A stretch of DNA of 64,000 bases from Bradyrhizobium liaoningense (GTDB lineage: Bacteria; Pseudomonadota; Alphaproteobacteria; Rhizobiales; Xanthobacteraceae): the NCBI RefSeq assembly GCF_018130785.1, contig NZ_JAFCJT010000001.1, positions 558,001 through 622,000 on the forward strand. Reading direction: 5' to 3'. The position numbers and the translations under genes were made by a program. Numbering within the stretch: the stretch's first letter is position 1; each line of letters starts with the position of its first letter. The notes under the pieces are model-generated. The model made no database searches. It saw only the letters and a list, made by a program, of their open reading frames with translations, and had not been told where the DNA came from. Positions 16,239 through 57,548 of this stretch are shown here, piece by piece.

Positions 16239-16340
16239 CCAGGTTCGAGCACTTCCCCACAATGATGGTTGGCATTGCAGCGTAGTGCTCTGAACCCAGC
16301 GACCCTTCCACGGGCCGGTCAGCGTACGGCCAACACGCTC

Positions 16341-25902: not shown

Positions 25903-27153
25903 ATGTTGAAATGCAGTGTGGGACTGATCGCGCTGAGCAGCCTTTTTCTTTCAGGCGCGGCAATCGCCCAGGAAAAGATCAGGGTCGGCGTCACGGCAAC
26001 GTTGGAGGGCACCTACACGGTGCTCGGCGAGGACGGCATGCGCGGCCACCAGACGGCGCTCAATGTGCTTGGCAAGAAGGTCGGGGACAAGGAGCTTGAA
26101 TTCATCGTTGCTTCGACCGACGCGACGCCGGACTCCGCGGTGCGCGCCGTACGCAAGCTGATCGAGCAGGACAAGGTGCAGATCCTGTTGTCGCCGCTCT
26201 CCGGCGACGAGGGCATTGCGGTCAAGAACTTCGCCAAGACCCATCCCGAGCTGACCTTCATCAACGCGGCATCCGGCGCGCAGGAAACGACCTATGTCGA
26301 CCCCGCCCCGAACTTCTTCCGCTACAACATGGATGGCGCGCAGTGGCAGGTCGGCCTCGGCAAATACGCCTATGAGGAAAAGAAGTATCGCAAGATCGCG
26401 ACTGTCGGCGAAGACTATTCCTTCATCTACACGCAGGTTTTCGGCCTCGTGCTCGAATTCTGCGGCGCCGGCGGGCAGGTCACCAACCGGCAATGGGTGC
26501 CACTCGGCACCAAGGATTTTGCTTCCGTCATCGCGGCCTTGCCCGATGATGTCGACGCCATCTATCTCGGGCTCGGCGGGGCCGATGCCGTCAACTTCCT
26601 GAACCAGTACCAGCAGGCCGGCGGCAAGGCGCATCTGATGGGTGGTTCCATCATGATCGACCAGACCATCCTGTCCTCGAAAGGCAACGCAAAAAATGCG
26701 CTGGTCGGCACCATCGCGGCGAGCGGTCAAGCCGACACCTGGGAGGATCCGGGCTGGCAGAAGTTCGTGAAGGCCTATCAGGATGCCTTCCCGCCCAACA
26801 AGCGCTTCCCAAGCCCTTCCTTGCTTGCGACCAATTATTACGGCTCGACCATGGCGCTGATCCTCGCGCTGCGCGAGGTCAACGGCGATCTTTCCAATAA
26901 CCAGGCCAAATACAGGGCGGCGCTTGCGAAGATCGAGCTTGATGCACCGAACGGCAAGATCAAGCTCGACTCCAATCGTCAGGCGATCGGCACCAACTTC
27001 GTCACGGAAGTCGTCGACGATGGCAAGGGCGCGTTGTTTTCGAAGGTCGTCAAGGTGATCCCAAACGTCAACCAGACGCTGGGCTACGACCCCGCGGTGT
27101 TCGCCAAGATCGGTTTGCCAAGCCGTACAGTACCGGAATGTAAGAAGTACTGA
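25903..27153 (+). CDS. Branched-chain amino-acid-type ABC transporter substrate-binding protein
   Basis: 416 residues with signal peptide 1-22 (ending AAIAQ). It belongs to the periplasmic-binding type I (LivJ/HAAT) family: 'KIRVGVTATLEGTYTVLGEDGMRG' at the N-terminus, 'LLSPLSGDEGIAVKNFAKTHPELTFINAASGAQETTY' lining the ligand cleft, and an 'LMGGSIMIDQTILSSKGNAKNALVGTIAASG' hinge segment. HAAT proteins of Bradyrhizobium bind amino acids, aromatics and other small acids. The linked catabolic genes argue for a non-amino-acid ligand. ATG 25903 has GGGAGGAG upstream. It heads the operon and is separated from the permeases by a regulator gene and a strong hairpin. Confidence 0.88.
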   Translation: MLKCSVGLIALSSLFLSGAAIAQEKIRVGVTATLEGTYTVLGEDGMRGHQTALNVLGKKVGDKELEFIVASTDATPDSAVRAVRKLIEQDKVQILLSPLSGDEGIAVKNFAKTHPELTFINAASGAQETTYVDPAPNFFRYNMDGAQWQVGLGKYAYEEKKYRKIATVGEDYSFIYTQVFGLVLEFCGAGGQVTNRQWVPLGTKDFASVIAALPDDVDAIYLGLGGADAVNFLNQYQQAGGKAHLMGGSIMIDQTILSSKGNAKNALVGTIAASGQADTWEDPGWQKFVKAYQDAFPPNKRFPSPSLLATNYYGSTMALILALREVNGDLSNNQAKYRAALAKIELDAPNGKIKLDSNRQAIGTNFVTEVVDDGKGALFSKVVKVIPNVNQTLGYDPAVFAKIGLPSRTVPECKKY

Positions 27154-27180
27154 CGTAGTCTCGTTCGCGAGCGATGACTG

Positions 27181-27237
27181 ACCGGGGAGAGATTTGCAAG
27201 GTGCGGACATTGTGCGCCCTTGCATTCTCTCCCCGGT
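27181..27237 (+). terminator. Long imperfect hairpin after the binding-protein gene
   Basis: ACCGGGGAGAGA (27181-27192) pairs exactly with TCTCTCCCCGGT (27226-27237). A TTT/TA internal bulge then separates it from an inner GCAAGG/CCTTGC stem. It starts 27 bases after the binding-protein stop and ends 46 bases before the AraC-type start. There is no T-tract, so it probably limits read-through or protects the 3' end, giving more binding protein than transporter and enzymes. Confidence 0.65.
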
Positions 27238-27283
27238 TGTTGAACGCTACCAAAAAAAGACAAGAACTTTTGGGAGGGAAGGC

Positions 27284-28111
27284 ATGAGCCGGGCGCTCGC
27301 CGTCTTCCACGGCCGCTTTGGCCGGGCGACGGTCTATCAATTGAACCGCCCTTTCAACATCCACGCACATCGCGAAGGTCATCTGATCTTCCATGTCGGG
27401 GGACGTCCCGCGTGCATTGATGTCAACGATGGCCGCTACGAGCTCACTGAAGGCTCCGTCGTCGCGATCAATCCATGGGAGCCGCATAATTTCCTGCCGT
27501 CCGATCTCGAAGGCGGCGCCGTTTTCTTCGTGCTTTATGTCAATGCGGAGTGGTTCGCGCCCGATGCACCCGGCGCCGACCGCTTGCGCTTCGGCCGTAC
27601 CCAGTTCACGCGGTCGGCTGCGCTGGACAAGCATATCCGGCACGCAGCCGCTCTCGTGTGCGGCGCACCCTCGCTCAATAGCCTCGATGGCGAGCTGAGA
27701 CGGCTGATCGACGTCTGCTACGACGAAAGCTGGCAACAGGCGGAGACCTCGCGCGACCCGCGTGCAAACGGCTCGGTCACCGATTTTCGCGTACGCAAGT
27801 GCATCAAGATGATGTCGGAGAGCCCCGGCGCTGAGATCGAGCTCGACACCATCGCGCGCGAATCCGGCTTGTCCCGCCCGCATTTCTACCGGCTGTTCCG
27901 CACGCAGACGGGCGTGACGCCGCACCTCTATCTCAACACGCTGATGATGGAGCAGGCGCTGGAAGCGCTGGTGGCGAGTGAAGCACCGATCGCCGATATC
28001 GGCTTCGATCTCGGCTTCTCATCGCAGAGCGGTTTCACCCGGTTCTTCGCCGCCAATGTCGGGATGGCGCCGACCGATTATCGTCGCGCGGCCAAGGTTT
28101 TGCGCACCTGA
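27284..28111 (+). CDS. AraC-family transcriptional regulator with N-terminal cupin
   Basis: 275 residues. Residues 10-100 look like an AraC-type ligand-binding cupin ('NIHAHREGHLIFHVGGRPACIDVNDGRYEL' in outline, then 'INPWEPHNF'). The C-terminus has two HTH motifs, 'LDTIARESGLSRPHFYRLFR' and 'IADIGFDLGFSSQSGFTRFF', matching the AraC signature. ATG 27284 has GGGAGGG 6 bases upstream. It is embedded between the importer's binding protein and permease genes, so it most likely activates this operon in response to the imported compound or a product, which is an inference from position. Confidence 0.88.
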   Translation: MSRALAVFHGRFGRATVYQLNRPFNIHAHREGHLIFHVGGRPACIDVNDGRYELTEGSVVAINPWEPHNFLPSDLEGGAVFFVLYVNAEWFAPDAPGADRLRFGRTQFTRSAALDKHIRHAAALVCGAPSLNSLDGELRRLIDVCYDESWQQAETSRDPRANGSVTDFRVRKCIKMMSESPGAEIELDTIARESGLSRPHFYRLFRTQTGVTPHLYLNTLMMEQALEALVASEAPIADIGFDLGFSSQSGFTRFFAANVGMAPTDYRRAAKVLRT

Positions 28112-28252
28112 CGGGCGCGCGAAAAGATACTCACGATCAAACGCCCCCCTTACACCCCGATTAGGATGTGCGGGACGCGGTCCCGATAAGAGGATCGCGG
28201 TCGATAGGGAGCGCACGTTCATGGCAGGGCTTGCGGCCGGTAACGGTCAGCG

Positions 28253-28290
28253 TGCCCCCTCGCCCCGCTTGCGGGAAGAGGGCTGGGGTA
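28253..28290. repeat. Intergenic palindromic element (REP-like)
   Basis: GCCCCCTCGCCCCGCTTGCGGG followed by AAGAGGG holds an inner CCCGC-TT-GCGGG stem flanked by CCCTC/GAGGG arms. This form is commonly scattered between genes in Bradyrhizobium and related genomes. It lies 23 bases before the permease start. Only one copy was seen in this window. Confidence 0.5.
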
Positions 28291-28312
28291 AAGTGGAGAC
28301 GGAGCGGCGATC

Positions 28313-29323
28313 ATGACCCGCTTTGTCGAACGCCATCCAGCCTGGGCACTGATCATCATCATCGCGATCGCGGTGGCACTGTGGCTGATCTTCGCTGTGT
28401 GGCCGCCTGGCCTTGAAGACGCGATCGGGCGCAAGCGCGTCTTCCTCAACGCCGTGTTCAACGGCATCACGCTCGGCGGTCTCTACTTCCTGGTCGCCAG
28501 CGGTTTCACCCTGATTTTCGGCCTGATGCGCAACGTCAATCTCGCGCACGGCTCGCTCTATTTGTTCGGAGGCTATGTCGGCTACGCCATCAGCGCCTCG
28601 ACCGGCTCGTGGCTCCTCAGCTTCATCATCGCCTTCATTCTGACGGCGTTGGTCGGCGTCCTGCTTCAGCTCATCGTCTTCCGCCGCATGGAGGGCCAGG
28701 ACTTGCGGCAGACCATGGTGACGATCGGGCTCTCGATCGTTTTCGCCGACCTCATGCTGTGGGCTTGCGGCGGCGACTTCTACCAGATCCAGACGCCGAA
28801 CTGGCTGATCGGCCCCGTGGAGCTGCCTCTGATCACTGCGGTCAAGTCCTCGGGCGAGCCGGTTTATCTGCGCTATCCGCTGGTCCGGCTGGTGATCTTC
28901 GTCGCCTCCGTCGTGATCGGCGTGGCGATGTGGCTGGCGCTCAACCGCACGCGCATCGGCATGATCATCCGCGCCGGCGTCGACGATCGCGACATCCTGG
29001 CTGCGACCGGGGTGCGGATCCAGCTCGTCTTCGTGGGGGTCTTTGCGCTGGGCGCCGGGCTTGCCGGCATCGCCGGCGTCGTCGGCGGTACCTTCCAGTC
29101 ACTGTCCCCCGGCGAAGACATCCGCTTCCTGCTCGCCTCGCTCGTGGTTGTCATCGTCGGCGGCATGGGCTCGATTCCGGGGGCTGCCCTGGGCGCACTG
29201 ATTATCGGCCTCGCAGAACAGCTCGGCTCGGTCTACATCCCCACCTATGCCATCGTCGTGACCTTCCTGATCATGGTGCTGGTCCTGGCAATCCGGCCGC
29301 AAGGCCTGGTGGCGAGGCGCTGA
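28313..29323 (+). CDS. livH: Branched-chain-type ABC transporter permease, LivH family
   Basis: 336 residues with about eight to nine membrane helices. The LivH hallmark appears as 'NAVFNGITLGGLYFLVASGFTLIFGLMRNVNLAHGSLYLFGGYVG', where the GLxRxxNxAHG loop is diagnostic, plus the coupling-loop region 'RTRIGMIIRAGVDDRDILAATGV' that contacts the ATPases. An N-terminal extension of about 40 residues carries one extra helix. The next gene begins one base after the stop. It would form the membrane channel with the LivM-type partner. Confidence 0.9.
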   Translation: MTRFVERHPAWALIIIIAIAVALWLIFAVWPPGLEDAIGRKRVFLNAVFNGITLGGLYFLVASGFTLIFGLMRNVNLAHGSLYLFGGYVGYAISASTGSWLLSFIIAFILTALVGVLLQLIVFRRMEGQDLRQTMVTIGLSIVFADLMLWACGGDFYQIQTPNWLIGPVELPLITAVKSSGEPVYLRYPLVRLVIFVASVVIGVAMWLALNRTRIGMIIRAGVDDRDILAATGVRIQLVFVGVFALGAGLAGIAGVVGGTFQSLSPGEDIRFLLASLVVVIVGGMGSIPGAALGALIIGLAEQLGSVYIPTYAIVVTFLIMVLVLAIRPQGLVARR

Positions 29324-29324
29324 G

Positions 29325-30455
29325 ATGTCGCTCGCCCACGATGCTCGCGTTGCCGTTCACCCCGCCGGGGTGGCGCAGCGATCCGCGCGGGGTTGGCCGG
29401 AGATCAACAATCCTGCAGCCTGGATCGTCGCGGCCATTCTCCTGATCATGCCGCTGATCGCCAACGGCTTCTTCCTGATCGAGATCTTTGCGACCACGCT
29501 GATCCTCGGCACGATGGCGCTGAGCCTGATGTTCCTCGCCGGCTATGGCGGCATGGTCAGTCTGATGCAGCTCACCATCGCGGGTTTCTCCGCCTACATG
29601 GTCGCGGTGTTCGGCGTCAGCGGCAACGCCAATATCAGCCTGGGCTGGCCGTGGTGGCTTGCAGTCCCGATGGCGCTCGCGCTCGCGACCATCTTCGGCA
29701 CGCTCGGCGGCGCGCTAGCGGTGCGCACCGAGGGCATCTACACCATCATGATCACGCTCGCGATCGGCGCGGCATTCTATTACTTCACCAACCAAAACTG
29801 GGCGATCTTCAACGGCCATACCGGCATCAACACTGTTGCAACGCCGCATTTCTGGGGCGTCAACTGGCGCGCCGACATTCCCTTCTACTATATCGTGCTC
29901 GCGGTCGCTGCGCTGTGCTACTTCGCCGTCGAATACGTCTCTCGCGCACCGTTCGGCTTGGCACTGCAGGGTGTCCGCGACAATCCCCGCCGCATGGCGG
30001 CGCTCGGCTTCAACGTCAATGCGCATCGCGTTGCCGCCTACGCCTTCGCGTCCTTTGTCGCGGCGCTGGCCGGCGTGCTTCAGGTCTGGAATTACCGGCA
30101 GATCTCGCCAGGCTCGGTCAGCGTCGGTGCCTGCATTGACATCCTCATCATCGCTGTCGTCGGCGGCATCACGCGGCCGATCGGCCCCTTTATCGGCGCG
30201 CTGATTTTCGTGCTGCTCCGCACCTTCGCAATCGACTTCCTGGTCAAGCTCGGGCTCGACGGCAACCGCTTCCGGCTGCTGATCGGCCTCGGCTTCCTCG
30301 CGATCGTGTTCTGGTCCTCGGACGGCGTCATCGGGCTTTGGCAGAGCTGGTGGAGACGCCAACGATCCGGCGCGGCCCGTTCAAGCGGACGTCACGGCCG
30401 AGGATCTGGCCAAGGATCTGGCCAAGCATCTGGCCAAGGATCCGGTCATGGATAG
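29325..30455 (+). CDS. livM: Branched-chain-type ABC transporter permease, LivM family
   Basis: 376 residues with around nine membrane helices. LivM features include 'LATIFGTLGGALAVRTEGIYTIMITLAIGAAFYYF' and the coupling loop 'RAPFGLALQGVRDNPRRMAALGFNVNAHR'. The last 20 residues are a Gly/Ser/Gln-rich tail (RGSGQGSGQASGQGSGHG) made by a 12-bp repeat that is absent from ordinary LivM. The stop lies eight bases inside the next gene. The tail is read in a second frame immediately upstream of the LivG start. Confidence 0.9.
   Translation: MSLAHDARVAVHPAGVAQRSARGWPEINNPAAWIVAAILLIMPLIANGFFLIEIFATTLILGTMALSLMFLAGYGGMVSLMQLTIAGFSAYMVAVFGVSGNANISLGWPWWLAVPMALALATIFGTLGGALAVRTEGIYTIMITLAIGAAFYYFTNQNWAIFNGHTGINTVATPHFWGVNWRADIPFYYIVLAVAALCYFAVEYVSRAPFGLALQGVRDNPRRMAALGFNVNAHRVAAYAFASFVAALAGVLQVWNYRQISPGSVSVGACIDILIIAVVGGITRPIGPFIGALIFVLLRTFAIDFLVKLGLDGNRFRLLIGLGFLAIVFWSSDGVIGLWQSWWRRQRSGAARSSGRHGRGSGQGSGQASGQGSGHG
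30403..30450. repeat. 12-bp tandem repeat at the livM-livG overlap
   Basis: Four units start at 30403, 30415, 30427 and 30439 (GATCTGGCCAAG, same, CATCTGGCCAAG, GATCCGGTCATG). In the livM frame they encode repeated Gly-Ser-Gly-Gln; in the livG frame they read Asp-Leu-Ala-Lys, and the last unit supplies the livG ATG. The 12-bp period is in phase for both frames. Confidence 0.75.
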
Positions 30456-31230
30456 CGTCGCGCAACGCCTCTCTGCCGTCGGCGCCGGCGCGGCGCTGGA
30501 GCTCCGTGGGGTGACCCGGCTGTTTGGCGCGCTCGCGGCGCTCACCGACGTCACCATTACCGTTCGCCCCGGCGAACGGCGCGCCGTGCTCGGCTCCAAC
30601 GGCGCCGGAAAGACCACCCTGTTCAACTGCATCACCGGTGATTTCCCACCCTCCTCCGGCACCATCCGCTTCTTCGGCGAGGACGTCACGCACTTCCCGC
30701 CCTATGAGCGGATCCGCCGTGGCCTGCGCCGGACTTACCAGATCTCCGCGCTGTTCCCCGGCCTCACGGTGCAGGACAATGTCTATCTCGCTTGCCGCGG
30801 CGTCTCGCGGGGGCGCTTCTCGTTTCTCCGCCCCGGTCAGAACGATGCGCTGATGCACGCAGCCGACAATCTCGTGCAGGCCGTCCATCTCACGAGCGTG
30901 AAGGATCAGCACGTTGCCGAGCTCGCGCATGGCCAGCAACGCCAGCTCGAGATCGCGCTGGCGCTTGCCGGCGCGCCTCGCTTCGTGCTGTTCGACGAGC
31001 CAGCGGCGGGCCTGTCGCCGACCGAGCGCACCGAGCTGATCGAGATATTGACTTCGCTGCCGGCGCATATCGGCTACATCATCATCGAGCACGACATGGA
31101 TGTCGCCTTGCGCGTCGTCGAAAGCGTCACGATGATGCACAACGGCCGCATCTTCAAGGAAGGCCTGCCGCAGGAAATCCAATCCGATCCTGAGGTGCAG
31201 GAACTTTACCTCGGAGGCAGCCATGAATGA
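30448..31230 (+). CDS. livG: Branched-chain-type ABC transporter ATPase, LivG family
   Basis: 260 residues: Walker A GSNGAGKTT (49-57), the LivG-type signature 'ELAHGQQRQLEIALAL' (His in place of Ser-Gly), Walker B 'FVLFDEPAAGLSPTE', and the switch His in 'IIIEHDMDVALRVVESVTMMHNGRI'. It powers the importer together with the ATPase encoded next. The ATG falls inside the livM 3' repeat. The frame continues open upstream, so a slightly longer N-terminus cannot be ruled out. It overlaps the next gene by eight bases. Confidence 0.9.
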   Translation: MDSVAQRLSAVGAGAALELRGVTRLFGALAALTDVTITVRPGERRAVLGSNGAGKTTLFNCITGDFPPSSGTIRFFGEDVTHFPPYERIRRGLRRTYQISALFPGLTVQDNVYLACRGVSRGRFSFLRPGQNDALMHAADNLVQAVHLTSVKDQHVAELAHGQQRQLEIALALAGAPRFVLFDEPAAGLSPTERTELIEILTSLPAHIGYIIIEHDMDVALRVVESVTMMHNGRIFKEGLPQEIQSDPEVQELYLGGSHE

Positions 31231-33436
31231 GGCCCGCCGCACCGCCGCCGCGCTCGAGGTCCGCGGGCTCGATGTCTACTACGGGCATTCGCATGCGCTG
31301 CAAGGAGTCGACCTGACACTCGATAGGGGCGTGTTCTCGGTGGTCGGCCGCAACGGCATGGGCAAGACTACGCTGTGCAAGGCGGTCATGGGACTGGTGC
31401 CGGTCAGCGGCGGTTCGATCCGTGTCCACGGTGACGACGTCACCCGGCGGCCGCCCGCCCACATAGCCCGGCTTGGCGTCGGCTACGTGCCGCAGGGCCG
31501 GCGGTTGTGGCGCTCGCTCAGCGTCGACGAGCACCTGCAGCTTGCCGCCGGCTTGCGTCGCGGCGCCTGGACGGTCGAGCGCATCTACGAGACGTTTCCG
31601 CGGCTGGCCGAGCGCAAGGACCATGGCGGCGGCCAGCTCTCCGGCGGCGAGCAGCAGATGCTCGCCATCTCCCGCGCGCTGCTCACCAATCCGCAGCTCC
31701 TGATCATGGACGAGCCCACCGAGGGGCTCGCGCCGGTCATCGTCGCCCAGGTCGAGGAGATGCTGCTGCGGCTTGGCGAGGACGGCGACATGTCCGTACT
31801 CGTGATCGAGCAGAATATCGGCGTGGCGACGGCCGTCTCGCGCAACGTCGCGATCATGGTCAACGGCCGCATCAACCGCATCATCGATTCTGCGCGGCTT
31901 GCCGCCGACCGCGCATTGCAGCAGCGCCTGCTCGGTGTCGGGCTGCACGCCGAGCTCGAACCCGACATCGAGGCGCCAGCGACCGGGAACGCGGCGAGAC
32001 CCGCCCCGCAGCCGGCCCGTCCCAGCGGCCCGATCCGAATCTACATCTCCAACCCGATACCGCCCACTCGCTGGTCGCAGCCGGTGCCGATCGCCCGCAT
32101 CGAGGCCGCGGCGCGGACGCTCTCGACACAGGTGATGCGTCTCGACGAGACCTCCCGGCGCAGGCGCGAGCCGGCTGCGGCGCAAACGCAGGGACCGCCG
32201 GTCGTCCTCGTCGTCGGCACGCTCGACACCAAGGCCACGGAGCTTCGCTTCATCCGCGACATCATTGCTGGCAGCGGTCTGCGCACACGGTTAGTGGACG
32301 TCTCCACCAGCGGCAGGCATTCCACCTGCGACGTCTCCGCCCAGGAGATCGCCCTGAACCATGGGCGCGGCGGATCGGCGGTGTTCGGACCCGACCGCGG
32401 CGCCGCCGTCACCGCGATGGCCGAGGCCTTCGCCAGCTGGCTGCGACGCCAGAGCAATATTGCCGGCGTGATTTCGGCGGGCGGCTCGGGCGCTGCATCG
32501 CTGGTCGCGCCTGGGATGCGGACCCTTCCGGTCGGGGTGCCCAAACTGATCATCTCCTCCGTCGCCTCCGGCGACGTCGGGCCCTATGTCGGCCCCGCCG
32601 ACATTACCATGATGCATTCGGTCACTGACGTGCAGGGCCTCAACTCGATCTCACGTGCCGTGCTCGCCAATGGCGCCAATGCGCTGGCCGGCATGGTCAG
32701 GGCGCGTCTCGATCAGCACGCGCGGAACGACCGCAGCGACGGCGGATTGCCGTCGGTCGGCATCACCATGTTCGGCGTCACCACGCCGGCAGTGCAGAAG
32801 ATCGCGGCCGACCTGCGCGAGGATTTCGAGTGCCTCGTCTTCCACGCCACCGGCGTTGGCGGCCGCTCAATGGAGACGCTCGTCGATTCCGGACAGCTCG
32901 CCGGAGTCATCGACCTCACCACGACGGAGGTCTGCGATCTCCTGATGGGCGGCGTGTTTCCGGCGACCGACGACCGCTTCGGCGCCATCATCCGCAGCCG
33001 CCTACCCTATGTCGCTTCGGTCGGCGCGCTCGACATGGTCAATTTCGGCGCCGCCGAGACCATTCCGGAGCGCTACCGCGGCCGGAAATTCCACGTCCAC
33101 AACCCGCAGGTCACTCTGATGCGGACTACCGCCGAGGAGAACGAGCGCATGGGCCGCTGGATCGCCGATCGGCTTAACCAGATGGATGGGCCGGTGCGCT
33201 TCTTCCTGCCCGAGGGCGGGGTGTCCGCGCTCGACGCGCGAGGGCAGCCGTTCTGGGATCCGGAGGCCGATTCTGCCCTGTTCCGGGCACTGGAGCGCAC
33301 GGTTCGGCAGACCACCAATCGTCAGCTCATCCGCGTCCCCAAGAACATCAACGATCCCGAGTTCGCCTCCACCATTGTCGGCGCGTTCCGAACCTTGTTC
33401 GGCCGCTCCGGGGCGCGCCGGAGACTAGCGAGGTGA
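31223..33436 (+). CDS. LivF-type ABC ATPase fused to a Tm-1-like (UPF0261) ATP-binding domain
   Basis: 737 residues with two clear halves. Residues 10-245 are a LivF ATPase: Walker A GRNGMGKTT with Lys48, signature LSGGEQQ (139-145), Walker B LLIMDEPTEGLAP with Asp163-Glu164. A Pro/Arg-rich linker (about 250-320) follows. From residue 327 the UPF0261 signature VVLVVGTLDTKATE opens a domain homologous to the N-terminal half of plant Tm-1, including 'GVISAGGSGAASLVAPGMRTLPVG' and 'VTDVQGLNSISRAVLANGANALAGM'. LivF alone is about 235 residues, so this is a genuine fusion with no sign of frameshift. It physically ties importer energisation to a domain of unknown bacterial function. The partner Tm-1 C-terminal homologue is encoded three bases downstream. 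Confidence 0.88.
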   Translation: MNEARRTAAALEVRGLDVYYGHSHALQGVDLTLDRGVFSVVGRNGMGKTTLCKAVMGLVPVSGGSIRVHGDDVTRRPPAHIARLGVGYVPQGRRLWRSLSVDEHLQLAAGLRRGAWTVERIYETFPRLAERKDHGGGQLSGGEQQMLAISRALLTNPQLLIMDEPTEGLAPVIVAQVEEMLLRLGEDGDMSVLVIEQNIGVATAVSRNVAIMVNGRINRIIDSARLAADRALQQRLLGVGLHAELEPDIEAPATGNAARPAPQPARPSGPIRIYISNPIPPTRWSQPVPIARIEAAARTLSTQVMRLDETSRRRREPAAAQTQGPPVVLVVGTLDTKATELRFIRDIIAGSGLRTRLVDVSTSGRHSTCDVSAQEIALNHGRGGSAVFGPDRGAAVTAMAEAFASWLRRQSNIAGVISAGGSGAASLVAPGMRTLPVGVPKLIISSVASGDVGPYVGPADITMMHSVTDVQGLNSISRAVLANGANALAGMVRARLDQHARNDRSDGGLPSVGITMFGVTTPAVQKIAADLREDFECLVFHATGVGGRSMETLVDSGQLAGVIDLTTTEVCDLLMGGVFPATDDRFGAIIRSRLPYVASVGALDMVNFGAAETIPERYRGRKFHVHNPQVTLMRTTAEENERMGRWIADRLNQMDGPVRFFLPEGGVSALDARGQPFWDPEADSALFRALERTVRQTTNRQLIRVPKNINDPEFASTIVGAFRTLFGRSGARRRLAR

Positions 33437-33439
33437 CCG

Positions 33440-34273: not shown

Positions 34274-34298
34274 CGCCGGAAGGTCGAGGGAGGGAAGC

Positions 34299-37220: not shown

Positions 37221-37229
37221 GGTCGCATC

Positions 37230-37667: not shown

Positions 37668-37672
37668 GCTGC

Positions 37673-38116: not shown

Positions 38117-38118
38117 CA

Positions 38119-38937: not shown

Positions 38938-38942
38938 TTGTC

Positions 38943-39419: not shown

Positions 39420-39430
39420 AGGATTTTGTC

Positions 39431-41023: not shown

Positions 41024-42046
41024 ATGACCCGGCATCGCGGACGCGGCATGGCGTCGATCAACTATCCCATCGGCATGAATCTCGGCGGCGATCCCAGCCA
41101 GGCGCTGGTTCATTCCAACCCGAGCGGCAAGTTCACGGTGGCGCTGTCGTCGATCGACCTCGGCCAGGGCATGAAGTCGGTGACCCGGCAGATCTGCGCG
41201 GAGACGCTGGGCGTTCCCGTCGAGGACGTCTATGTCGACACCGCGGACTCAGACACCGGTCCGCATTGCATGGGCTCCTTCGCCTCGCGCGGCACCCATC
41301 GCGTCGGCAATGCGGTGATGGCCGCGGCGCGCGAGGCACGCGGCGTGATGATGGAGGCGGCCGCCGAGGAGCTCGAGGTCAACGCCGCCGATCTCGAAAC
41401 CGACGGACGCGGCAACATCCACGTCAAGGGTGCGCCGCATCGCTCGATCTCGACCAAGGACGTCGCCATCGCCGCCCAGTTCAAGCAGGGCAAGACCATC
41501 TCCGGCCGCGGCATATTCCTGGTGCCTCTGTCCAACGTCGACCCCGAAACCGGCGAGATGTCGCCGGCGACCTGCTACGCCCATGCCTGTCTCGTGGCGG
41601 AGGTCGAGGTCGACGACGAGACCGGTGAAGTCGCGATGGTCCGCATGGACTCCGCCTATGAGCTAGGCCGCGCGCTGAATCCGCGCCTGGTCGAGCAGCA
41701 GCTCGTCGGCGGCGCCTGGATGGGCATCAGCCACGCGCTCTACGAGACGACGGAGCCTCATTATCCCGACCCCGTTCACGGCCCCCGCGACTTCGTCGAA
41801 TATCTGATGCCCGGCCCGGGCGACATTTGCCCGCACGATATCGCCGTGCTGGAGCGCCCTGCGCCGGACGGTCCGTTCGGCGCCAAGGGACCGGGCGAGA
41901 TGTGCGCCAATCCCGTGCTGCCGGCGGTCGCGAATGCGATTTTCAACGCCGTCGGCGTGCGCATCGACGATCTGCCGATTACGCCGGAAAAGGTGCTGCG
42001 CGCGATCAAGACCCAGGGCGGCGCGCGGCCACAGGCGCGACGCTGA
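41024..42046 (+). CDS. Molybdenum hydroxylase large subunit, C-terminal half
   Basis: 340 residues equal to the second Moco-binding domain. It opens with RGRGMASINYPIG, the usual start of that domain, has 'VALSSIDLGQGMKSVTRQICAETLG', and contains the catalytic Glu292 in GAKGPGEMC. ATG 41024 follows the previous TAG directly and has a perfect AGGAGG seven bases ahead, so it is probably translated as a separate polypeptide that assembles with the N-terminal half. A single in-frame stop is all that separates the halves; sequencing error or strain-specific mutation is the alternative. Confidence 0.85.
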   Translation: MTRHRGRGMASINYPIGMNLGGDPSQALVHSNPSGKFTVALSSIDLGQGMKSVTRQICAETLGVPVEDVYVDTADSDTGPHCMGSFASRGTHRVGNAVMAAAREARGVMMEAAAEELEVNAADLETDGRGNIHVKGAPHRSISTKDVAIAAQFKQGKTISGRGIFLVPLSNVDPETGEMSPATCYAHACLVAEVEVDDETGEVAMVRMDSAYELGRALNPRLVEQQLVGGAWMGISHALYETTEPHYPDPVHGPRDFVEYLMPGPGDICPHDIAVLERPAPDGPFGAKGPGEMCANPVLPAVANAIFNAVGVRIDDLPITPEKVLRAIKTQGGARPQARR

Positions 42047-42054
42047 GACTGGCC

Positions 42055-42936
42055 ATGGCAGTTCGCAGCAACATCGTCGGCATCGACAACCCCGAAGCGC
42101 TGGAGAAGGCGCTTCGGGCGGCCTATTACCTCGCAGATGATGGGCTCGCGACCGCGGCCTATCTCGGCCTTGCCCTCGGCAAACCGCTCCTGCTCGAAGG
42201 CGCCCCCGGTGTCGGCAAGACCGAGGCCGCGAAAGCCATCGCCGCCGTCCTCGGCCGCCGCCTCATTCGCCTGCAATGCTACGAGGGCATCGACGCCTCG
42301 GCCGCGCTCTACGAGTGGAACTATCCACGCCAGATGCTCGCGATCCGCCAGGCCGGCGACGAGAGCATCGACATCTATGGCGAGACGTTTCTGATTGAGC
42401 GGCCGATGCTGGCGACGCTCCGCGCGCCCGACTCGACCGTGCTGCTGATCGATGAGATCGACCGCGCCGACCAGGAATTTGAGGCATTTCTGCTCGAATT
42501 TCTCTCGGATTTCCAGATCTCGATCCCGGAACGTGGCACCGTGCGCGCGGCCGAACGTCCTGTCGTCGTGCTGACGTCGAACCGGACGCGCGACCTGCAC
42601 GAGGCCCTGCGCCGCCGCTGTGTCTATCACTGGATCGACTATCCCACCGAAGAGCGGGAGGCGCGTATCGTGATGCTGCGGGCCTCGAGCGTCGCCGAGG
42701 CGACCGCGCGGGCCGTCGTCGCGGCCGTCGGCAAATTGCGCCGCGAGCCGCTCAGCAAGGCACCGGGCATCGCGGAAGCCGTCGACTGGGCCGAAGCGGC
42801 GACGCTCCTTCACAAGGGCGGTGCGCGCTGGCCCGACGCCTTCAAACGCTCGATCGGCGTGGCGCTGAAAGACGAGGAAGACCTGCACTTCATCTCGCCA
42901 CGGCTCGACGTCATGCTCGCGGAGGCGACGGCATGA
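42055..42936 (+). CDS. MoxR-family AAA+ ATPase, CoxD-like
   Basis: 293 residues with Walker A EGAPGVGKT (48-56), Walker B VLLIDEIDRAD with Asp133-Glu134, and sensor-1 'VVVLTSNRTRDLHEALRRRC'. It ends in a C-terminal lid. MoxR ATPases act as chaperones with VWA proteins to activate metalloenzymes. In cox operons CoxD works with CoxE and CoxF in maturing the Mo-containing active site. Its stop overlaps the start of the VWA gene (ATGA), the standard MoxR-VWA pairing. Here it most likely matures the split hydroxylase. Confidence 0.88.
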   Translation: MAVRSNIVGIDNPEALEKALRAAYYLADDGLATAAYLGLALGKPLLLEGAPGVGKTEAAKAIAAVLGRRLIRLQCYEGIDASAALYEWNYPRQMLAIRQAGDESIDIYGETFLIERPMLATLRAPDSTVLLIDEIDRADQEFEAFLLEFLSDFQISIPERGTVRAAERPVVVLTSNRTRDLHEALRRRCVYHWIDYPTEEREARIVMLRASSVAEATARAVVAAVGKLRREPLSKAPGIAEAVDWAEAATLLHKGGARWPDAFKRSIGVALKDEEDLHFISPRLDVMLAEATA

Positions 42937-44054
42937 GCACCGGGCCGGAGCTTCCGCGCGCTGCCCGCATCTTCGTCTCCTTCGTCGCGCTGCTGCGCGC
43001 CAACGGCTTCGCCGTCGCGCCCGAGCAGACCACCTCCTATCTCGCCGCGATCGAGCTGCTCGGGCCGCGCGACCTCAACGACATCAGGCAATCGGCACTG
43101 GCCACACTCGCCCCGCCACCCGAGCGCCGCTCGACCTTCGACCGGCTGTTCGACCTGCACTTCCGCGGCAGCGAAGCCATCGAACATGTCGATGACGGCG
43201 AGGACGACGAGACCGTCCGGCTTCAGGAAGAAGGCCGCGGCGACGAGGAGCCGCTGCGCTCCGACGACGCCAACGAATCCGGCCTTACTGCGACGCGCAC
43301 CGAGGCGCTGGTGGAGCGTCGCTTCGCCCAGCTCTCCACCACCGACGCGCTCCGGCGCCTGGCGCGCGAGGCCTCCCGTCGCCTGCCGCAGCGGCGCGGC
43401 CACCGGCGCATGCGCGCCCGCCGCGGGCCGTTTGCCGACCTTCGCCGGACCCTACGCGACAGCGTGCGGAGCGACGGCGAGATCCTGCGGCTCGGGCACC
43501 TGAAGCGGCGCCAGCGCCGGCGAAAACTCCTGCTGCTGATCGACGTCTCCGGCTCGATGAAGACGCGCACCGAGGAGAACATGAAGCTGGCGCATACGCT
43601 GGTACAGGCCGCGCCCAATGTCGAGGTCTTCACCTTCGGCACGCGGCTGACCCGCGTCACCCGCCCGTTGCGGCTCAAGCGTCGCGAGCAGGCGCTGAGC
43701 GCGGCGGCGCACCTCGCCAGCGACTGGGATGGCGGCACCCGCATCGGCGACGCGCTGCAAGCCTTCTTAGCGGTGCCGCGGTTCGGCGGCTACGCGCGAG
43801 GCGCGGCCGTCATCGTCGTGTCGGACGGGCTGGAGCGCGGCGAACCCGATGCGTTGCGCGACGCGGTCGCAAGGCTGTCGCGGCGCGCCTGGCGCGTGAG
43901 CTGGCTGACGCCGCTCGCGACGGGCCCGGACTTCCGCCCGCAGACTGAGGCGCTGGTTGCCATCGAGCGCTTCGTCGATGATCTCGTGGATGGCGGTTCA
44001 AGCGCGTCGATTGTCGCGCACATTCTGACGTTGGGACGGAGGAGAGCAGCGTGA
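42933..44054 (+). CDS. VWA-domain protein, CoxE-like
   Basis: 373 residues. A charged N-terminal helical region is followed by an Arg-rich stretch (about 145-190) and a von Willebrand A domain. Its MIDAS motif is LLLIDVSGSM (Asp204, Ser206, Ser208) with a later 'VIVVSDGLERGE' strand. This fits the CoxE family that acts with CoxD-type MoxR ATPases. It overlaps by four bases with genes on both sides, so it is translated in step with the MoxR protein. Confidence 0.88.
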   Translation: MSTGPELPRAARIFVSFVALLRANGFAVAPEQTTSYLAAIELLGPRDLNDIRQSALATLAPPPERRSTFDRLFDLHFRGSEAIEHVDDGEDDETVRLQEEGRGDEEPLRSDDANESGLTATRTEALVERRFAQLSTTDALRRLAREASRRLPQRRGHRRMRARRGPFADLRRTLRDSVRSDGEILRLGHLKRRQRRRKLLLLIDVSGSMKTRTEENMKLAHTLVQAAPNVEVFTFGTRLTRVTRPLRLKRREQALSAAAHLASDWDGGTRIGDALQAFLAVPRFGGYARGAAVIVVSDGLERGEPDALRDAVARLSRRAWRVSWLTPLATGPDFRPQTEALVAIERFVDDLVDGGSSASIVAHILTLGRRRAA

Positions 44055-44935
44055 GCGACATTGTCGACGGCCATCATCACATCTGGCGACAGGCCGACCT
44101 GCCCTGGCTGACCGGTCCGATGCAGCCGCGCATTTTTGGACCCTACGAGCCGATCCGTCGCGATTACCCGATCCGGGAATATCTCGACGATCTCAAGGGC
44201 ACCGGCGTCACCCGCTCGATCTATGTCCAGACCAACTGGGCGAACGACCGCTTCGAGGATGAGACCGCCTGGGTGCAGCAGACCGCCGATGCGCACGGCT
44301 GGCCGCATGCCATCGTCGCCTACGCCGATTTCGCCGTCGACGACGTGCGACCGCAACTCGATCGCCTGAAGCGCTATCCGCTCGTGCGCGGCGTGCGCAT
44401 GCAGCTGCACTGGCACGAGAACCCGCTCTATCGCTTCGCGGCCAGGCCCGATCTCTGCGTCGATCCCACGGTCCGCCGCAACATCGCGCGCCTGGCGGAC
44501 TACGGCTGGAGCTTTGACCTCCAGGTCTTCACGCCGCAGATGCCGGATGCGGCGCAGCTCGCCGAATCCTGCCCCCGGGTGACCTTCATCCTCCAGCATG
44601 CCGGTATGCTGGAGGACCTCTCGCCCGCGGGCCGAGCCGCCTGGCGCGCCGGAATGGCCCGGCTCGCGGCCTGTCCGAACGTGGTCTCAAAACTCTCCGG
44701 GCTCGGCACCTTCATCCATCGCAACGATCCCGCGCACATCGCGGCCGTCCTTACCGATACCGTCGCGATTTACGGCGCGGAGCGCTGCCTGTTCGGCTCC
44801 AACTTTCCGATTGAGAAATTGTGGACCAGCTATCGGGAGCTCGTCGATGCCTTTCGTGCCTCGGCGGCGAAGCTGACGACCGAGCAGCAGGACGCAATTT
44901 TCAGGACGACGGCGACCCGCGTCTATCGGCTTTGA
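44051..44935 (+). CDS. Amidohydrolase-family TIM-barrel metal hydrolase (COG3618-type)
   Basis: 294 residues. It begins 'DIVDGHHHIW', with the H-x-H metal ligands of the amidohydrolase_2 fold, and contains 'GVRMQLHWHENP', 'FILQHAGM' and a terminal 'YGAERCLFGSNFPIEKLW', where the Asp/Asn position near the end normally ligates metal. Relatives hydrolyse lactones such as L-fuconolactone or 2-pyrone-4,6-dicarboxylate. In this operon it may open a ring or lactone formed after hydroxylation. The final 'GSNFP' has Asn where many relatives have Asp, as in several COG3618 lactonases. Confidence 0.85.
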   Translation: MSDIVDGHHHIWRQADLPWLTGPMQPRIFGPYEPIRRDYPIREYLDDLKGTGVTRSIYVQTNWANDRFEDETAWVQQTADAHGWPHAIVAYADFAVDDVRPQLDRLKRYPLVRGVRMQLHWHENPLYRFAARPDLCVDPTVRRNIARLADYGWSFDLQVFTPQMPDAAQLAESCPRVTFILQHAGMLEDLSPAGRAAWRAGMARLAACPNVVSKLSGLGTFIHRNDPAHIAAVLTDTVAIYGAERCLFGSNFPIEKLWTSYRELVDAFRASAAKLTTEQQDAIFRTTATRVYRL

Positions 44936-44965
44936 CAGACAAGAACAGAACAGGGAGGGAGACGA

Positions 44966-45814
44966 ATGGCGCTGGAGATCAAGATCCTGGACTACGGCGA
45001 TATCGAACTGGAATCGAGCTTTCTGGTTCTCGGCCGCGACTGCGGCCGAACCCGCCGTGTCCTCACCCTCGGTTTTCTGATCCTCGGCGGCAAATATCCG
45101 GTCGTGGTCGATACCGGTTACCGCTCCAACCAGATCATGGAAACGCTGGGGATGCGCGGCCTGCAATACCACGAGCACATGATCGAGAACCAGCTCGCCC
45201 GCCACGGCGTGCGCATGGGCGACGTCCGCTTCGTCTGCCATACCCATCTGCACATCGACCACGCCGGCAAGGACGATCTGTTTCCGATGAACACGACCGT
45301 CGTCCTCAACCGGAAAGAACTCGAATATTCCGTCTCCGGCCTGATGCATCCGCAGTATCCGGCGCCCGACATCAAGCATCTCATCGACCGACTGCACACC
45401 AAGAGTGCGCTGCGGTTCCTCGACCTCGAGATCACGGGTCCTATCGAGCTGATGCCCGGCGTCTATTGCGATGCGGCCAATGCACATACCGAAGGATCGA
45501 TGAACATCATCGTCGAGACTGCCGATGGGATCGCAACGATCTGCGGCGACGTGATCTACGACTTCAACGACCAGATCGTCACGCCCTTCAACGAGATCCA
45601 CGACTGGGAGCCGCGGACGACCGGCAACCACGGCACCAGCAAGCGGGCCGAGAAGGCCTCGATCAAGAAGCTGCTGAGCAATTCGCGCTATCTGCTGCCG
45701 GTGCACGACAGGCCGGCCAAGATCGAAGGCGGCATGGTCGTCGGACGGTTGCACGACCAGGTCCCCGGCCCGATCGTGCAGTCGCTGCCGGCGCGCAACT
45801 GGTTCCCCGCCTGA
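44966..45814 (+). CDS. Metallo-beta-lactamase-fold hydrolase, N-acyl-homoserine-lactonase family
   Basis: 282 residues. The metal site H-x-H-x-D-H lies at 94-99 (HLHIDH). A further ligand His sits in 'DAANAHTEGSMNI', Asp in 'ICGDVIYDFND', and a late His in 'LPVHDRPAK'. Family members include quorum-quenching AHL lactonases and lactonases in catabolic operons. Co-location with another lactonase and an SMP-30 domain makes a catabolic role likelier than quorum quenching. GGGAGG precedes ATG 44966. Confidence 0.85.
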   Translation: MALEIKILDYGDIELESSFLVLGRDCGRTRRVLTLGFLILGGKYPVVVDTGYRSNQIMETLGMRGLQYHEHMIENQLARHGVRMGDVRFVCHTHLHIDHAGKDDLFPMNTTVVLNRKELEYSVSGLMHPQYPAPDIKHLIDRLHTKSALRFLDLEITGPIELMPGVYCDAANAHTEGSMNIIVETADGIATICGDVIYDFNDQIVTPFNEIHDWEPRTTGNHGTSKRAEKASIKKLLSNSRYLLPVHDRPAKIEGGMVVGRLHDQVPGPIVQSLPARNWFPA

Positions 45815-45836
45815 CGTGACCTGAGGATATCGACCG

Positions 45837-47411
45837 ATGACGCACGTCACCTTGCGCTCCGAATTCGAGACCCTGATCGACCCCTACGCGCCGGTCGCGC
45901 AGGTCGGAACAGGTTTTGACTTCACGGAAGGGCCGATCTGGCATCCGGTCGATCATTATCTCCTGTTCTCGGACATGCCGGGCGACGTGCGGCGGCGCTG
46001 GGATGCGCGGCGCGGCATCGCGGAGGTCAGGCGCCCGTCGAACAAATGCAACGGCATGACCTATGACGCCGAGCTCAATCTGATCGTCTGCGAGCACGCG
46101 ACCTCGTCGCTGATCCGTGAGCGGCCGGACGGGCGGCGCGAAGTGCTGGCCTCGCACTTCCAGGGACAGGAGCTCAACAGCCCCAACGACGTCTGCGTGC
46201 ACTCCTCCGGCGCCATCTATTTCTCCGATCCCTGGTATGGCCGCATGCCGGTCTATGGTGTAGAGCGCCCGCGCCAGCTCGGCTTCCAGGGAGTCTATCG
46301 CCTCGTGCCGGGTGGAGACCCGAAGCTCGTGGTCGATCGCAACTTGTTCGATCAACCGAACGGGCTGTGCTTCTCGCCCGACGAAAAGCTGCTCTATGTC
46401 AACGACACCGTGCAGGCGCTGATCCGCGTGTTCGATGCAAATGTCGACGGTACACTGTCGAACGCACGCGTGTTTGCAAGCGGCATCCGCTCCGAGCTGG
46501 AGCCGGGCCTGCCCGACGGCATGAAGTGCGACCAGCATGGCAATGTCTGGGTCACCGCGCCCGGCGGCGTCTGGGTCTATTCAGCGCGCGGCGAGCTGCT
46601 CGGGAAAGTCCGCGTGCCTGAGCTGGTCGCCAACCTTGCCTGGGGTGGTCCGGATTTCCGCACCCTCTATTTGACGTCGACGCATTCGGTCTATGCCATC
46701 CCGACCAAGGTTGGGCCGCGCCACGAGCCCTTTATGAGCGGCAAACATGGCAGCGTCGGCACAAGCGCCGGCCCCGCGGCTGCAGCGCCCATCCTCGCCG
46801 ACGGCGAGATGCGGCTCGATCCAAGCCGCTGCGCCATGATCATCCAGGATCTCCAGAACGACGTCATCATGGATGGCGGCGCATTCGCCGAGTCGGGCGC
46901 ACCAGGTCATGCGAAGCAACAGCATGTGGTCGAGAACGTACGGCGCTTGGCTGAGACAGCGCGCGCGCGCGGCGTCGCCATCATCCATGTCTGGTTCGTA
47001 GTCGAGCCCGGTGCGCCCGGCGTGACGCTGAATGCGCCGCTGTTCGAGGGCCTCGTCGATAGCAAGGCGATGGTGCGCGGAAGCTGGGGTGCCTCCCCGG
47101 TCTCCGGCCTCGAGCCGCGGCCCGGCGATTTCGTCGTCGAGAAGATGCGGATGAGCGCCTGGGAGGGCACCCGGCTGGAGACCATCCTCAAAGCCACCGG
47201 GCGCGACATGATCATCAACACCGGCGCATGGACCAACATGTCGGTCGAGCACACCGCGCGCACCGGCGCCGACAAGGGCTATTTCATGATCGTGCCGGAA
47301 GACTGCTGCTCGACCATGAATGCCGACTGGCACTCCGCCTCGATCAACTTCGCCATGCAGAACGTCGCAATCGTCACCCGGGCGGATGCCGTCATCAGAG
47401 CGTTGGGATGA
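45837..47411 (+). CDS. Fusion of SMP-30/gluconolactonase and isochorismatase-fold domains
   Basis: 524 residues. Residues 15-300 form a six-bladed SMP-30 beta-propeller with the metal-site pattern 'FTEGPIWHP', 'SPNDVCVHSSGAIYFSDP' and 'LPDGMKCDQHGNVWV'. A Ser/Ala/Gly-rich linker (about 305-320) joins it to a cysteine-hydrolase/isochorismatase fold with catalytic-type Asp in 'MIIQDLQND'. At the place of the nucleophilic Cys in the usual TNxCVExTAR motif the sequence reads TNMSVEHTAR, with Ser469. The second domain may therefore bind rather than hydrolyse, or use another mechanism. The fusion implies consecutive lactone and amide steps or channelling, as inference. Confidence 0.85.
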   Translation: MTHVTLRSEFETLIDPYAPVAQVGTGFDFTEGPIWHPVDHYLLFSDMPGDVRRRWDARRGIAEVRRPSNKCNGMTYDAELNLIVCEHATSSLIRERPDGRREVLASHFQGQELNSPNDVCVHSSGAIYFSDPWYGRMPVYGVERPRQLGFQGVYRLVPGGDPKLVVDRNLFDQPNGLCFSPDEKLLYVNDTVQALIRVFDANVDGTLSNARVFASGIRSELEPGLPDGMKCDQHGNVWVTAPGGVWVYSARGELLGKVRVPELVANLAWGGPDFRTLYLTSTHSVYAIPTKVGPRHEPFMSGKHGSVGTSAGPAAAAPILADGEMRLDPSRCAMIIQDLQNDVIMDGGAFAESGAPGHAKQQHVVENVRRLAETARARGVAIIHVWFVVEPGAPGVTLNAPLFEGLVDSKAMVRGSWGASPVSGLEPRPGDFVVEKMRMSAWEGTRLETILKATGRDMIINTGAWTNMSVEHTARTGADKGYFMIVPEDCCSTMNADWHSASINFAMQNVAIVTRADAVIRALG

Positions 47412-48041
47412 GTGGTGGCAAAGCTTTTGCACCTCTCCTGTTCGCCCCGTGCCGACTCCGAGTCGAGCGCCGGCGCGCGCGTCTTTCTTGACGGGTTTCG
47501 GCAGGTCCGTCCGGACTGGGATATCGACGTCGTGGATCTCTGGCGGGAGCACCTGCCGGAATTTTCAGGCCCCATCGTCGAGGCCAAATACGCACGGATG
47601 AACGCGCAAGCCTTCAACGACGCGCAGCGCGACAGCTTTGCCGAGGCCGAGCGGATGGCGCTGCGCTTTTCACTGGCCGATCGCGTGCTGATCTCGACGC
47701 CGATGTGGAACTTCAGCATTCCCTACAAGCTCAAGCAATGGTTCGATGTCATCGTCCAGCCCGGGCTCACTTTTCGGTTCGACCCCTCCCTGGGATACGT
47801 CCCGCTGCTGAAGGACCGGCCGACCACGGTGATCCTCGCCAGTGGCAGCGATTTCGCCACCGGAATGAACCGCGGGCGCATCGACATGGCGACGCCCTAC
47901 CTGCGGGAAATCTTGCGATTTGTCGGTATCAGCAATGTCCGTTTCGTGCCGATCGGGCCAACCACCGGACCGCAACAACCGATCGAGGCTGCCCGGGAAA
48001 GAGCCCATCAGCACCTCGCCGCAATGGCAACGAATTTCTGA
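47412..48041 (+). CDS. azoR: FMN-dependent NADH-azoreductase (AzoR-type flavodoxin-fold)
   Basis: 209 residues. It has the phosphate-binding 'SCSPRADSESSAGA' at the N-terminus and the FMN-site 'ISTPMWNFSIPYKLKQWFD', diagnostic for AzoR-type reductases. GTG 47412, directly after the previous stop, or GTG 47415 is the start; none of the nearby ATGs is in frame. Physiologically these enzymes reduce quinones and other electrophiles. As the last gene of the operon it may detoxify a quinone-type intermediate. Confidence 0.88.
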   Translation: MVAKLLHLSCSPRADSESSAGARVFLDGFRQVRPDWDIDVVDLWREHLPEFSGPIVEAKYARMNAQAFNDAQRDSFAEAERMALRFSLADRVLISTPMWNFSIPYKLKQWFDVIVQPGLTFRFDPSLGYVPLLKDRPTTVILASGSDFATGMNRGRIDMATPYLREILRFVGISNVRFVPIGPTTGPQQPIEAARERAHQHLAAMATNF

Positions 48042-54472: not shown

Positions 54473-54493
54473 TCCGGGGCTTCACCCTCGAAT

Positions 54494-54588: not shown

Positions 54589-54608
54589 CGCTGTTGGAGG
54601 AGAAGCCC

Positions 54609-55625: not shown

Positions 55626-55630
55626 GCACG

Positions 55631-57529: not shown

Positions 57530-57548
57530 AGATAATGGGAATCATGCA

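Follow-up and report, generated by a model that had tools for sequence, protein, structure and literature searches.

Nicotinate dehydrogenase of Eubacterium barkeri, NdhFSLM (3HRD), is a molybdenum (Mo) hydroxylase whose Mo subunit is divided into two chains, NdhL and NdhM, described as two molybdenum-binding proteins (PMC10331938). No importer, Tm-1 or flotillin genes are mentioned with it in the available part of that account (PMC10331938). A Mo subunit split at the same domain boundary is encoded within the 64,000-nucleotide stretch of DNA analysed here (the window; C1:558001-622000 of an 8.3-Mb genome whose closest named loci are from Bradyrhizobium). There it belongs to a cluster of 20 genes, all on the plus strand (window positions 25903-48041), that also encodes a Liv-type importer, relatives of the two halves of plant Tm-1 (Tm1N and Tm1C) and a long flotillin. 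Unlike NdhL (425 amino acids, aa), which stops 10 residues past the aligned part, the first Mo half of the window (MoL1) carries a long C-terminal tail. The reading put forward here, to which a probability of about 40% is given, is that the cluster builds a membrane import-and-oxidation compartment, in which a long flotillin cage would stand beside the Liv importer and the Mo hydroxylase would be docked by the MoL1 tail.

The accessory genes of the enzyme recall the cox cluster (coxMSLDEFG), described as combining a Mo hydroxylase with the AAA+ protein CoxD, the VWA protein CoxE and the SRPBCC-superfamily protein CoxG, as here; CoxG carries an SRPBCC site for hydrophobic ligands (PMC4240915). 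The cox large subunit is a single chain (solved chains of ~800 aa), in contrast to the split subunit of the window, and the window Mo halves score far below the cut-off of CO dehydrogenase models: against the curated model (991 bits, one chain) MoL1 gives 170 bits and the second half (MoL2) 119, and half-chains cannot reach such a cut-off. Neither a Liv importer nor a Tm-1 pair nor a flotillin is known from the cox cluster.

The flotillin is best compared with SPFH cages (flotillin 1/2, HflK/C-FtsH, stomatin-AQP1/UT-B), which likewise join an SPFH domain to a long charged helical stalk and wall off membrane patches (PMC11260169, PMC12407830). Flotillin cages with hole-free walls are described, the human flotillin stalk measuring 186 residues (PMC11260169), and SPFH domes are reported to enclose transporters or FtsH (PMC12407830, a preprint). 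The stalk helix predicted for the window flotillin is much longer (~620 residues vs. 186), its gene sits in a catabolic-type operon, and an enzyme tail acting as a cargo signal is not described for SPFH cages in the available parts of these sources (PMC11260169, PMC12407830). A flotillin is also said to vary between culture fractions, in a source whose available part does not say which flotillin (PMC11996625). With encapsulin-like nanocompartments only the working mode (tail-docked cargo) is compared; no HK97-fold shell protein is present among the Pfam matches of the 20 genes.

Plant Tm-1, the tomato mosaic virus resistance protein, contains the same two domains as Tm1N and Tm1C. In plants the two are fused together, whereas in the window Tm1N is fused to the ATPase LivF and Tm1C has a gene of its own. 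The corresponding UPF0261 and TIM-barrel proteins are reported to co-evolve in bacteria (PMC5028733). No description of the operon or of a named pathway was found in the open-access literature (titles and abstract starts), in agreement with an earlier note on this DNA that knew of no named pathway with this gene set.

Conservation of the gene set and its two forms

A Tm1C scan of genome contigs gave at least 585 confirmed matches, the best 80 of which are the named loci; as these were collected via Tm1C, its presence in them is by construction. Gene presence and order were read by tblastn with the window proteins followed by a scripted count, and 63 of the 80 loci were long enough for the core. 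The series LivH-LivM-LivG-LivF-Tm1N-Tm1C-flotillin-SRPBCC1-SRPBCC2 is complete and in order in 58 of these 63 and incomplete in five (L078, L095, L100, L108, L115), flotillin being missing in only three (L095, L108, L115). LivF and Tm1N occupy a single reading frame in 70 of the 73 loci with both (exceptions L060, L079, L108). Where loci were fetched via flotillin instead (L003-L031, best matches only), Tm1N, Tm1C, both SRPBCC genes and the FAD gene adjoin it in 29/29. The order is kept far beyond chance, and the earlier note's reading of these genes as one set is supported. At L078, positions 10001-17659 hold Tm1C, a 921-aa flotillin open reading frame (ORF), the SRPBCC pair and then, beyond 2 kb that could be assigned to no gene, a FAD-subunit gene.

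A survey of 100 genomes (the window's own, 59 relatives of the same genus and 40 from other families) found a cluster-type flotillin in 55 by row count. The 55 are made up of 44 of the 59 same-genus relatives (identity of at least 77%), G052 (two contig-end pieces), G012 (63-67%), 8 of the 40 from other families and the window's own genome. Tm1C is also present in all 55, and a MoL2 match in 54 of them (absent from G042, partial in G051). One in-frame TGA interrupts the MoL2 match of G046 (C1:7033753-7034631), where the long flotillin and Tm1C are present as well. Without a cluster-type flotillin, Tm1C occurs in six further genomes of the 100 and MoL2 in one, G074.

Two forms are distinguished among the loci whose core is complete and whose downstream sequence exceeds 9 kb. 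Form A has all six of the FAD, FeS, MoL1, MoL2, MoxR and VWA genes (46 loci), form B has none of them (8), and mixed loci number 0. SRPBCC2 is fused to a dehydrogenase in 7/8 form B loci, and among form B-type loci generally SRPBCC2 and a zinc-type dehydrogenase/quinone reductase (MDR) share one frame in 13/13 with both found; no MDR dehydrogenase was found in form B-type locus L081. Where the locus reaches far enough, form B-type operons carry genes for an FAA hydrolase, an alpha/beta hydrolase and an amidohydrolase at either end, with no FAA hydrolase match in L113. The form B amidohydrolase was considered as an enamidase and rejected, none of its 24 solved matches being named as one. A tree of LivG, LivF, Tm1N and Tm1C (42 rows, Bradyrhizobium thinned, quick method, midpoint root) places form A entirely on one side of one branch, with 100 in the SH-like approximate likelihood ratio test (SH-aLRT).

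The earlier note had regarded independent occurrence of these genes in other genomes as an argument against a single unit, and such occurrence is found in part: the Tm-1 pair stands without the rest of the cluster in L095, L115, L157 and L158, the core lacks the Mo enzyme in form B, and the Mo enzyme is also found where the core is missing. The pieces being found apart, the operon therefore reads as a merger of two modules and not as an arbitrary grouping. The same note took the Tm-1 proteins and flotillin as core parts, which holds for LivF-Tm1N and flotillin, common to both forms, and for Tm1C not in every operon: in four of the five form B-like operons found via flotillin (L198, L200, L201, L202) no Tm1C lies between Tm1N and flotillin, although two genomes of that set (G152, G218) hold Tm1C on another contig.

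The split molybdenum hydroxylase and its tail

The enzyme is encoded by a FAD subunit (38119-38937; FAD_binding_5, CO_deh_flav_C), a 2Fe-2S subunit (38943-39419; Fer2, Fer2_2), MoL1 (39431-41023, 530 aa; Ald_Xan_dh_C, MoCoBD_1) and MoL2 (41024-42046, 340 aa; MoCoBD_2), which together present the domain set of the xanthine dehydrogenase family (PF00941/PF03450, PF00111/PF01799, PF01315/PF02738, PF20256). They are followed by a MoxR/CoxD-type AAA+ ATPase (42055-42936; AAA, AAA_5) and a CoxE-type VWA protein (42933-44054; VWA_CoxE 1.3e-45). The closest solved structure for both Mo halves is 3HRD (E 6.8e-59 for MoL1 with 3hrd_A, 5e-47 for MoL2 with 3hrd_B), and the subunit is divided at the MoCoBD_1/MoCoBD_2 boundary, as between these two chains. 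The enzyme is thus predicted to be a split molybdenum hydroxylase of the NdhL/NdhM type.

In the window the MoL1 stop codon, TAG, stands immediately before the ATG of MoL2 in the same frame. A sequencing error or nonsense mutation as the cause of the split is ruled out: the halves are separate genes in all 48 named loci with both, in many relatives they lie in different frames, and the distance from stop to start, -1 to +12 bases in 46 of the 48, is 177 and 582 bases in the other two. The large subunit in two pieces, as first noticed from the sequence, is therefore real. MoCoBD_2 is lacking, by precomputed domains, in 118 of the 120 best MoL1 homologues (of 5394); among the matches listed, P0051 (872 aa) and P0095 (869 aa) are one-chain homologues with this domain.

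Beyond residue 456, MoL1 continues as a proline- and alanine-rich stretch that ends in RFSSVFGTRRR (tail, 40799-41020). A C-terminal RRR is present in all 76 complete MoL1 ends of operon loci (48/48 named and 28/28 further; four named loci that end before the MoL1 stop are left out, and some of the 28 further genomes are possibly of the same species as named ones), and 64 of the 76 fit FSSxxGxRRR. An alignment of 26 proteins gives tail lengths of 67 to 182 residues, with a variable linker and a tip in which F and G never change. The AlphaFold model of MoL1 has a predicted local distance difference test score (pLDDT) below 50 for residues 456-530, within a model that is poor as a whole (mean 60.0). 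A tuning of tail length to flotillin length was considered and dropped (Spearman -0.16, p 0.50, 20 form A loci).

Tail-less relatives as a natural control

Genome G074 combines Tm1C with a split Mo hydroxylase and has no flotillin match. In its enzyme cluster (L155) MoL1 ends SESSGKGG, without a tail, and a Tm1C gene lies ~11 kb further on. When the G074 MoL2 was searched against 397 genomes of the order, 60 had a match; the best 30 loci comprise 13 tail-less ones (L159-L171), 16 tailed ones ending RRR and one that is not assessable (L185). Ten of the 13 tail-less neighbourhoods were read. LivH, LivM, Tm1N and flotillin occur in 0/10, MoxR, VWA and amidohydrolase in 9/10 (none of the three in L196), and an SRPBCC gene adjoins the enzyme genes in 3/10. 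Because the core is missing from all of these neighbourhoods and MoxR-VWA from only one, the tail, judged by gene neighbourhood, is a companion of the importer-flotillin core and not of MoxR-VWA.

Seven of the 13 tail-less genomes gave no flotillin match at 1e-20, one (G509) has only distant flotillins, and five hold a form B-like operon, with enzyme and operon on different contigs and flotillins of 729-857 aa. In a MoL2 tree rooted on five unsplit paralogues of the window's own genome, with long outgroup branches and an unsure root, the 35 rows labelled tailed form one clade (SH-aLRT 100) nested inside the tail-less rows; L185 is counted among the tailed rows, its tail unseen.

These relatives bear on two other explanations of the tail. 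It might be a handle for MoxR-VWA: the AAA+ ring would grip the tail, which is loose, and in this way insert or sulfurate the Mo site. The Mo enzyme never occurs without MoxR-VWA in the two forms, form A being so defined, and CoxD and CoxE are described as taking part in CO dehydrogenase maturation (PMC4240915); since the pair is present in nearly all tail-less neighbourhoods, the tail is not needed for it, and this role is disfavoured as very improbable. The tail might also be a membrane tether, its tip binding the inner membrane, with electrons passed to quinone, help from the CoxG-like SRPBCC proteins and flotillin as a general organiser. The aromatic and basic character of the tip is compatible with this, as are the proposal that CoxG recruits CO dehydrogenase to the membrane (PMC4240915) and the SRPBCC genes beside three of the tail-less enzymes. 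Yet the same contact would be required in the relatives that have MoxR-VWA and no tail, three of which also have SRPBCC, and the conservation of the tip is too tight for a generic basic patch. A tether is on balance unlikely.

A long flotillin in form A

The cluster flotillin (34299-37220, 973 aa) has a predicted N-terminal hydrophobic membrane helix (3-33), a Band_7/SPFH domain (PF01145), a helix predicted for residues 203-824 and a Flot domain (PF15975). Form A flotillins measure 865-1174 aa (median 966, 46 loci) and form B-type flotillins 566-784 aa (14 loci), with five more of 729-857 aa; the description "giant" in the earlier note thus suits form A, the flotillins of form B being shorter. 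The extra length of form A lies in the helical stalk, at about residues 420-660, a stretch that form B mostly lacks in an alignment of 15 form A and 6 form B sequences. In the monomer model of the window protein, the stalk is nearly a single helix with two short breaks, and by arithmetic (0.15 nm per residue) it would reach ~90 nm. A housekeeping role for the cluster flotillin was considered and rejected: the other flotillin of the genome (L153, 564 aa) has a different setting, beside YqiJ- and PspA-type genes.

Flotillin length and tail might both reflect drift in coiled-coil and disordered regions, in an otherwise ordinary catabolic operon whose soluble enzymes would break down an aromatic or heterocyclic acid. 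The importer, Mo hydroxylase and hydrolases are the usual parts of such a pathway, flotillin length varies inside each form, and linker length is variable and uncorrelated with it. Conservation of the tip beyond a linker that varies argues instead for selection on the tail, and the retention of flotillin in all but three of the evaluable Tm1C loci for selection on flotillin, which leaves drift a rather improbable explanation.

Importer, Tm-1 proteins and substrate

The importer set is complete and of the Liv/HAAT type: a substrate-binding protein (SBP, 25903-27153; Peripla_BP_6 3.6e-47), the permeases LivH (28313-29323) and LivM (29325-30455; BPD_transp_2 in both), and the ATPases LivG (30448-31230; ABC_tran, BCA_ABC_TP_C) and LivF, the latter continuing into the Tm-1 N half Tm1N (UPF0261; 31223-33436; ABC_tran and PF06792/PF23189). 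A tRNA-Ala called by ARAGORN at 30304-30399 is probably false, given its position inside the LivM coding sequence. Tm1N matches the solved UPF0261 proteins 3wry (tomato Tm-1, 342 bits) and 9mpy (192 bits), the former a lead on the origin of the plant Tm-1 gene. Among the matches listed for LivF-Tm1N (25/185 families), only two uncharacterised PRK02399 models pass their cut-off. Tm1C (33440-34273) is a TIM barrel of the PEP_hydrolase family (PF09370 2.5e-128; PDB 2p10 E 4e-120).

Tm1C-like barrels are joined to a Fis-type helix-turn-helix (HTH) in regulators at L109 (21-1640, by Pfam), L084 (4-1533) and L158 (10.6-12.2 kb; the last two by similarity). Several form B operons have such a regulator beside them, as does a Tm-1 pair that stands alone. 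This suggests that Tm1C-like barrels bind a small ligand and may be ligand sensors.

Three hydrolase genes follow the enzyme: an amidohydrolase-2 (lactonase-like) hydrolase (44051-44935; Amidohydro_2 1.9e-52, with a fuconolactonase model below cut-off), a metallo-beta-lactamase-fold hydrolase (44966-45814; Lactamase_B, its nearest NCBIfam models being lactonases, below cut-off) and a fusion of an SGL (gluconolactonase-type) domain with an isochorismatase-like domain (45837-47411; PF08450, PF00857). The isochorismatase-like domain (residues ~325-524) has Ser at the site of the catalytic Cys of isochorismatase-fold amidases, both in the window and in 21/21 relatives, including two other families. 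Amide opening, which the earlier note had allowed for the hydrolases, is therefore doubtful for this domain, whose target may be a different bond if it is catalytic at all.

Both Mo halves, the products of all three hydrolase genes, the binding protein, the flotillin and AzoR stay below every NCBIfam cut-off, and a substrate assignment from the nearest curated models was abandoned. The nearest solved chains of the binding protein are 4zpj, 4evq and 4ey3; among its solved relatives, 4evq, 4ey3 and 4f06 presumably bind aromatic acids. Together with the likeness of the enzyme to nicotinate dehydrogenase, these relatives favour an aromatic or N-heterocyclic acid as the probable substrate. A sugar-derived aldehyde or lactone is a possible alternative because of the lactonase-like hydrolases and the genes near the tail-less L155, which encode a sugar-type binding protein and an aldo/keto reductase. 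The heterocyclic or lactone compound of the earlier note is thus a candidate, with the resemblance to 3HRD in favour of an N-heterocyclic or aromatic acid.

Proposed mechanism

In the proposed compartment, a small acid, probably an aromatic or N-heterocyclic one, would enter through the SBP and LivHMGF. Being part of the LivF chain, Tm1N would meet the compound at the inner face of the importer and, with Tm1C where present, would act on the compound or else sense it. MoxR-VWA would mature the Mo hydroxylase, as CoxD/CoxE do CO dehydrogenase, and the enzyme would add oxygen from water. The SRPBCC proteins may bind a hydrophobic partner such as quinone, which we take to be the ligand of CoxG, and the lactonase-like hydrolases would open a ring or lactone of the product. 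Flotillin would hold importer and enzymes at one membrane spot, with the MoL1 tail docking the enzyme; SPFH domes around transporters or FtsH serve as the model for this enclosure. In this scheme, form A would go back to the joining of two parts, a free-standing split Mo hydroxylase module that had no tail and a form B-like importer-Tm1-flotillin core; the enzyme would then have gained its tail and the flotillin stalk would have lengthened. The basis for this sequence, with the merger first and the tail and longer stalk after it, is one branch per tree.

A more specific version of this compartment is rather unlikely. It posits an extra-tall flotillin cage over the Liv importer, loaded with Mo hydroxylase by means of a docking peptide at the C-terminus (a proline-rich linker that typically ends in F-S-S-x-x-G-x-R-R-R). 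The compound, met by the LivF-bound Tm-1 domain, would thereby be oxidized before it reaches the cytosol, and peptide and taller cage would have arisen together at the operon merger.

Several points weigh against the compartment. Tail, long flotillin and merged operon each represent approximately one event, and their association is a single coincidence, not many. The tip deviates from FSSxxGxRRR in 12 of the 76 MoL1 ends, and in the tailed relative L186 RRR is present and the F-S-S part absent. The aromatic-basic tip could bind membrane instead of flotillin. Tail and flotillin lengths show no correlation in the form A loci compared, and the longest form B-like flotillin (857 aa, L198) nearly overlaps with the shortest of form A (865 aa). 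Model confidence for the flotillin is low (mean pLDDT 61.9, predicted TM-score 0.26). No Mo halves were detected at L078 despite its 921-aa flotillin ORF and FAD-subunit gene, and Tm1C is apparently dispensable in some form B-like operons. Binding of tail to flotillin, the cage, the transcript and the substrate are all predictions from sequence. Confidence in the compartment is slightly reduced by the variation of the tip and by the five further form B-like operons, four of which have no Tm1C between Tm1N and flotillin.

Layout of the cluster and other genes in the window

The named domains of all 20 genes were recovered by Pfam, which confirms the gene content given in the earlier note and corrects its count of nineteen (it named 20). 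The tight spacing it described is borne out from LivH to AzoR (gaps of -8 to +30 bases) and not between LivH and the AraC-family regulator (27194-28111; HTH_18 9.5e-23; an alternative start at ATG 27284 is possible), where 201 bases (28112-28312) exceed every gap further downstream and form a possible promoter region for LivH onward. Because of this distance SBP-AraC could form its own transcript, and the cluster may comprise one or two transcripts. Between flotillin and the enzyme genes lie SRPBCC proteins 1 (37230-37667) and 2 (37664-38116), both with Polyketide_cyc2. The cluster ends with an AzoR-type flavodoxin-fold reductase (47412-48041; Flavodoxin_2), which lies downstream in 19/19 Bradyrhizobium-type loci reaching that far and is absent from both other-family loci that extend past the isochorismatase gene (0/2); AzoR is a Bradyrhizobium-type add-on. 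The amidohydrolase-2 gene was undetected in one (L128) of the 19.

Elsewhere in the window, a LacI-type regulator, the TRAP transporter DctQM, a RuBisCO-like protein and an SBD_N/NBD_C (acid-sugar-kinase-type) protein are encoded together at 53417-60706, in what looks like a separate sugar-acid cassette. The genes at 1743-10975, for a glycosyltransferase, an asparagine synthase, a protein weakly matching Wzz and an AMP-binding/carrier/thioesterase protein, may form a cluster for a surface polysaccharide or a small molecule. A 649-aa ORF without a Pfam match (11855-13804) lies within strong AT skew (0.217).

Implications

The gene set ties flotillin and the Tm-1 halves to an importer and an enzyme, and so offers a handle on both functions in bacteria. 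Tail-less enzymes and the form B operons with their shorter flotillins can serve as controls supplied by nature. Should the tail indeed dock the enzyme, flotillin-organised compartments would have a short address tag, of use in finding their clients and in placing enzymes at membranes.

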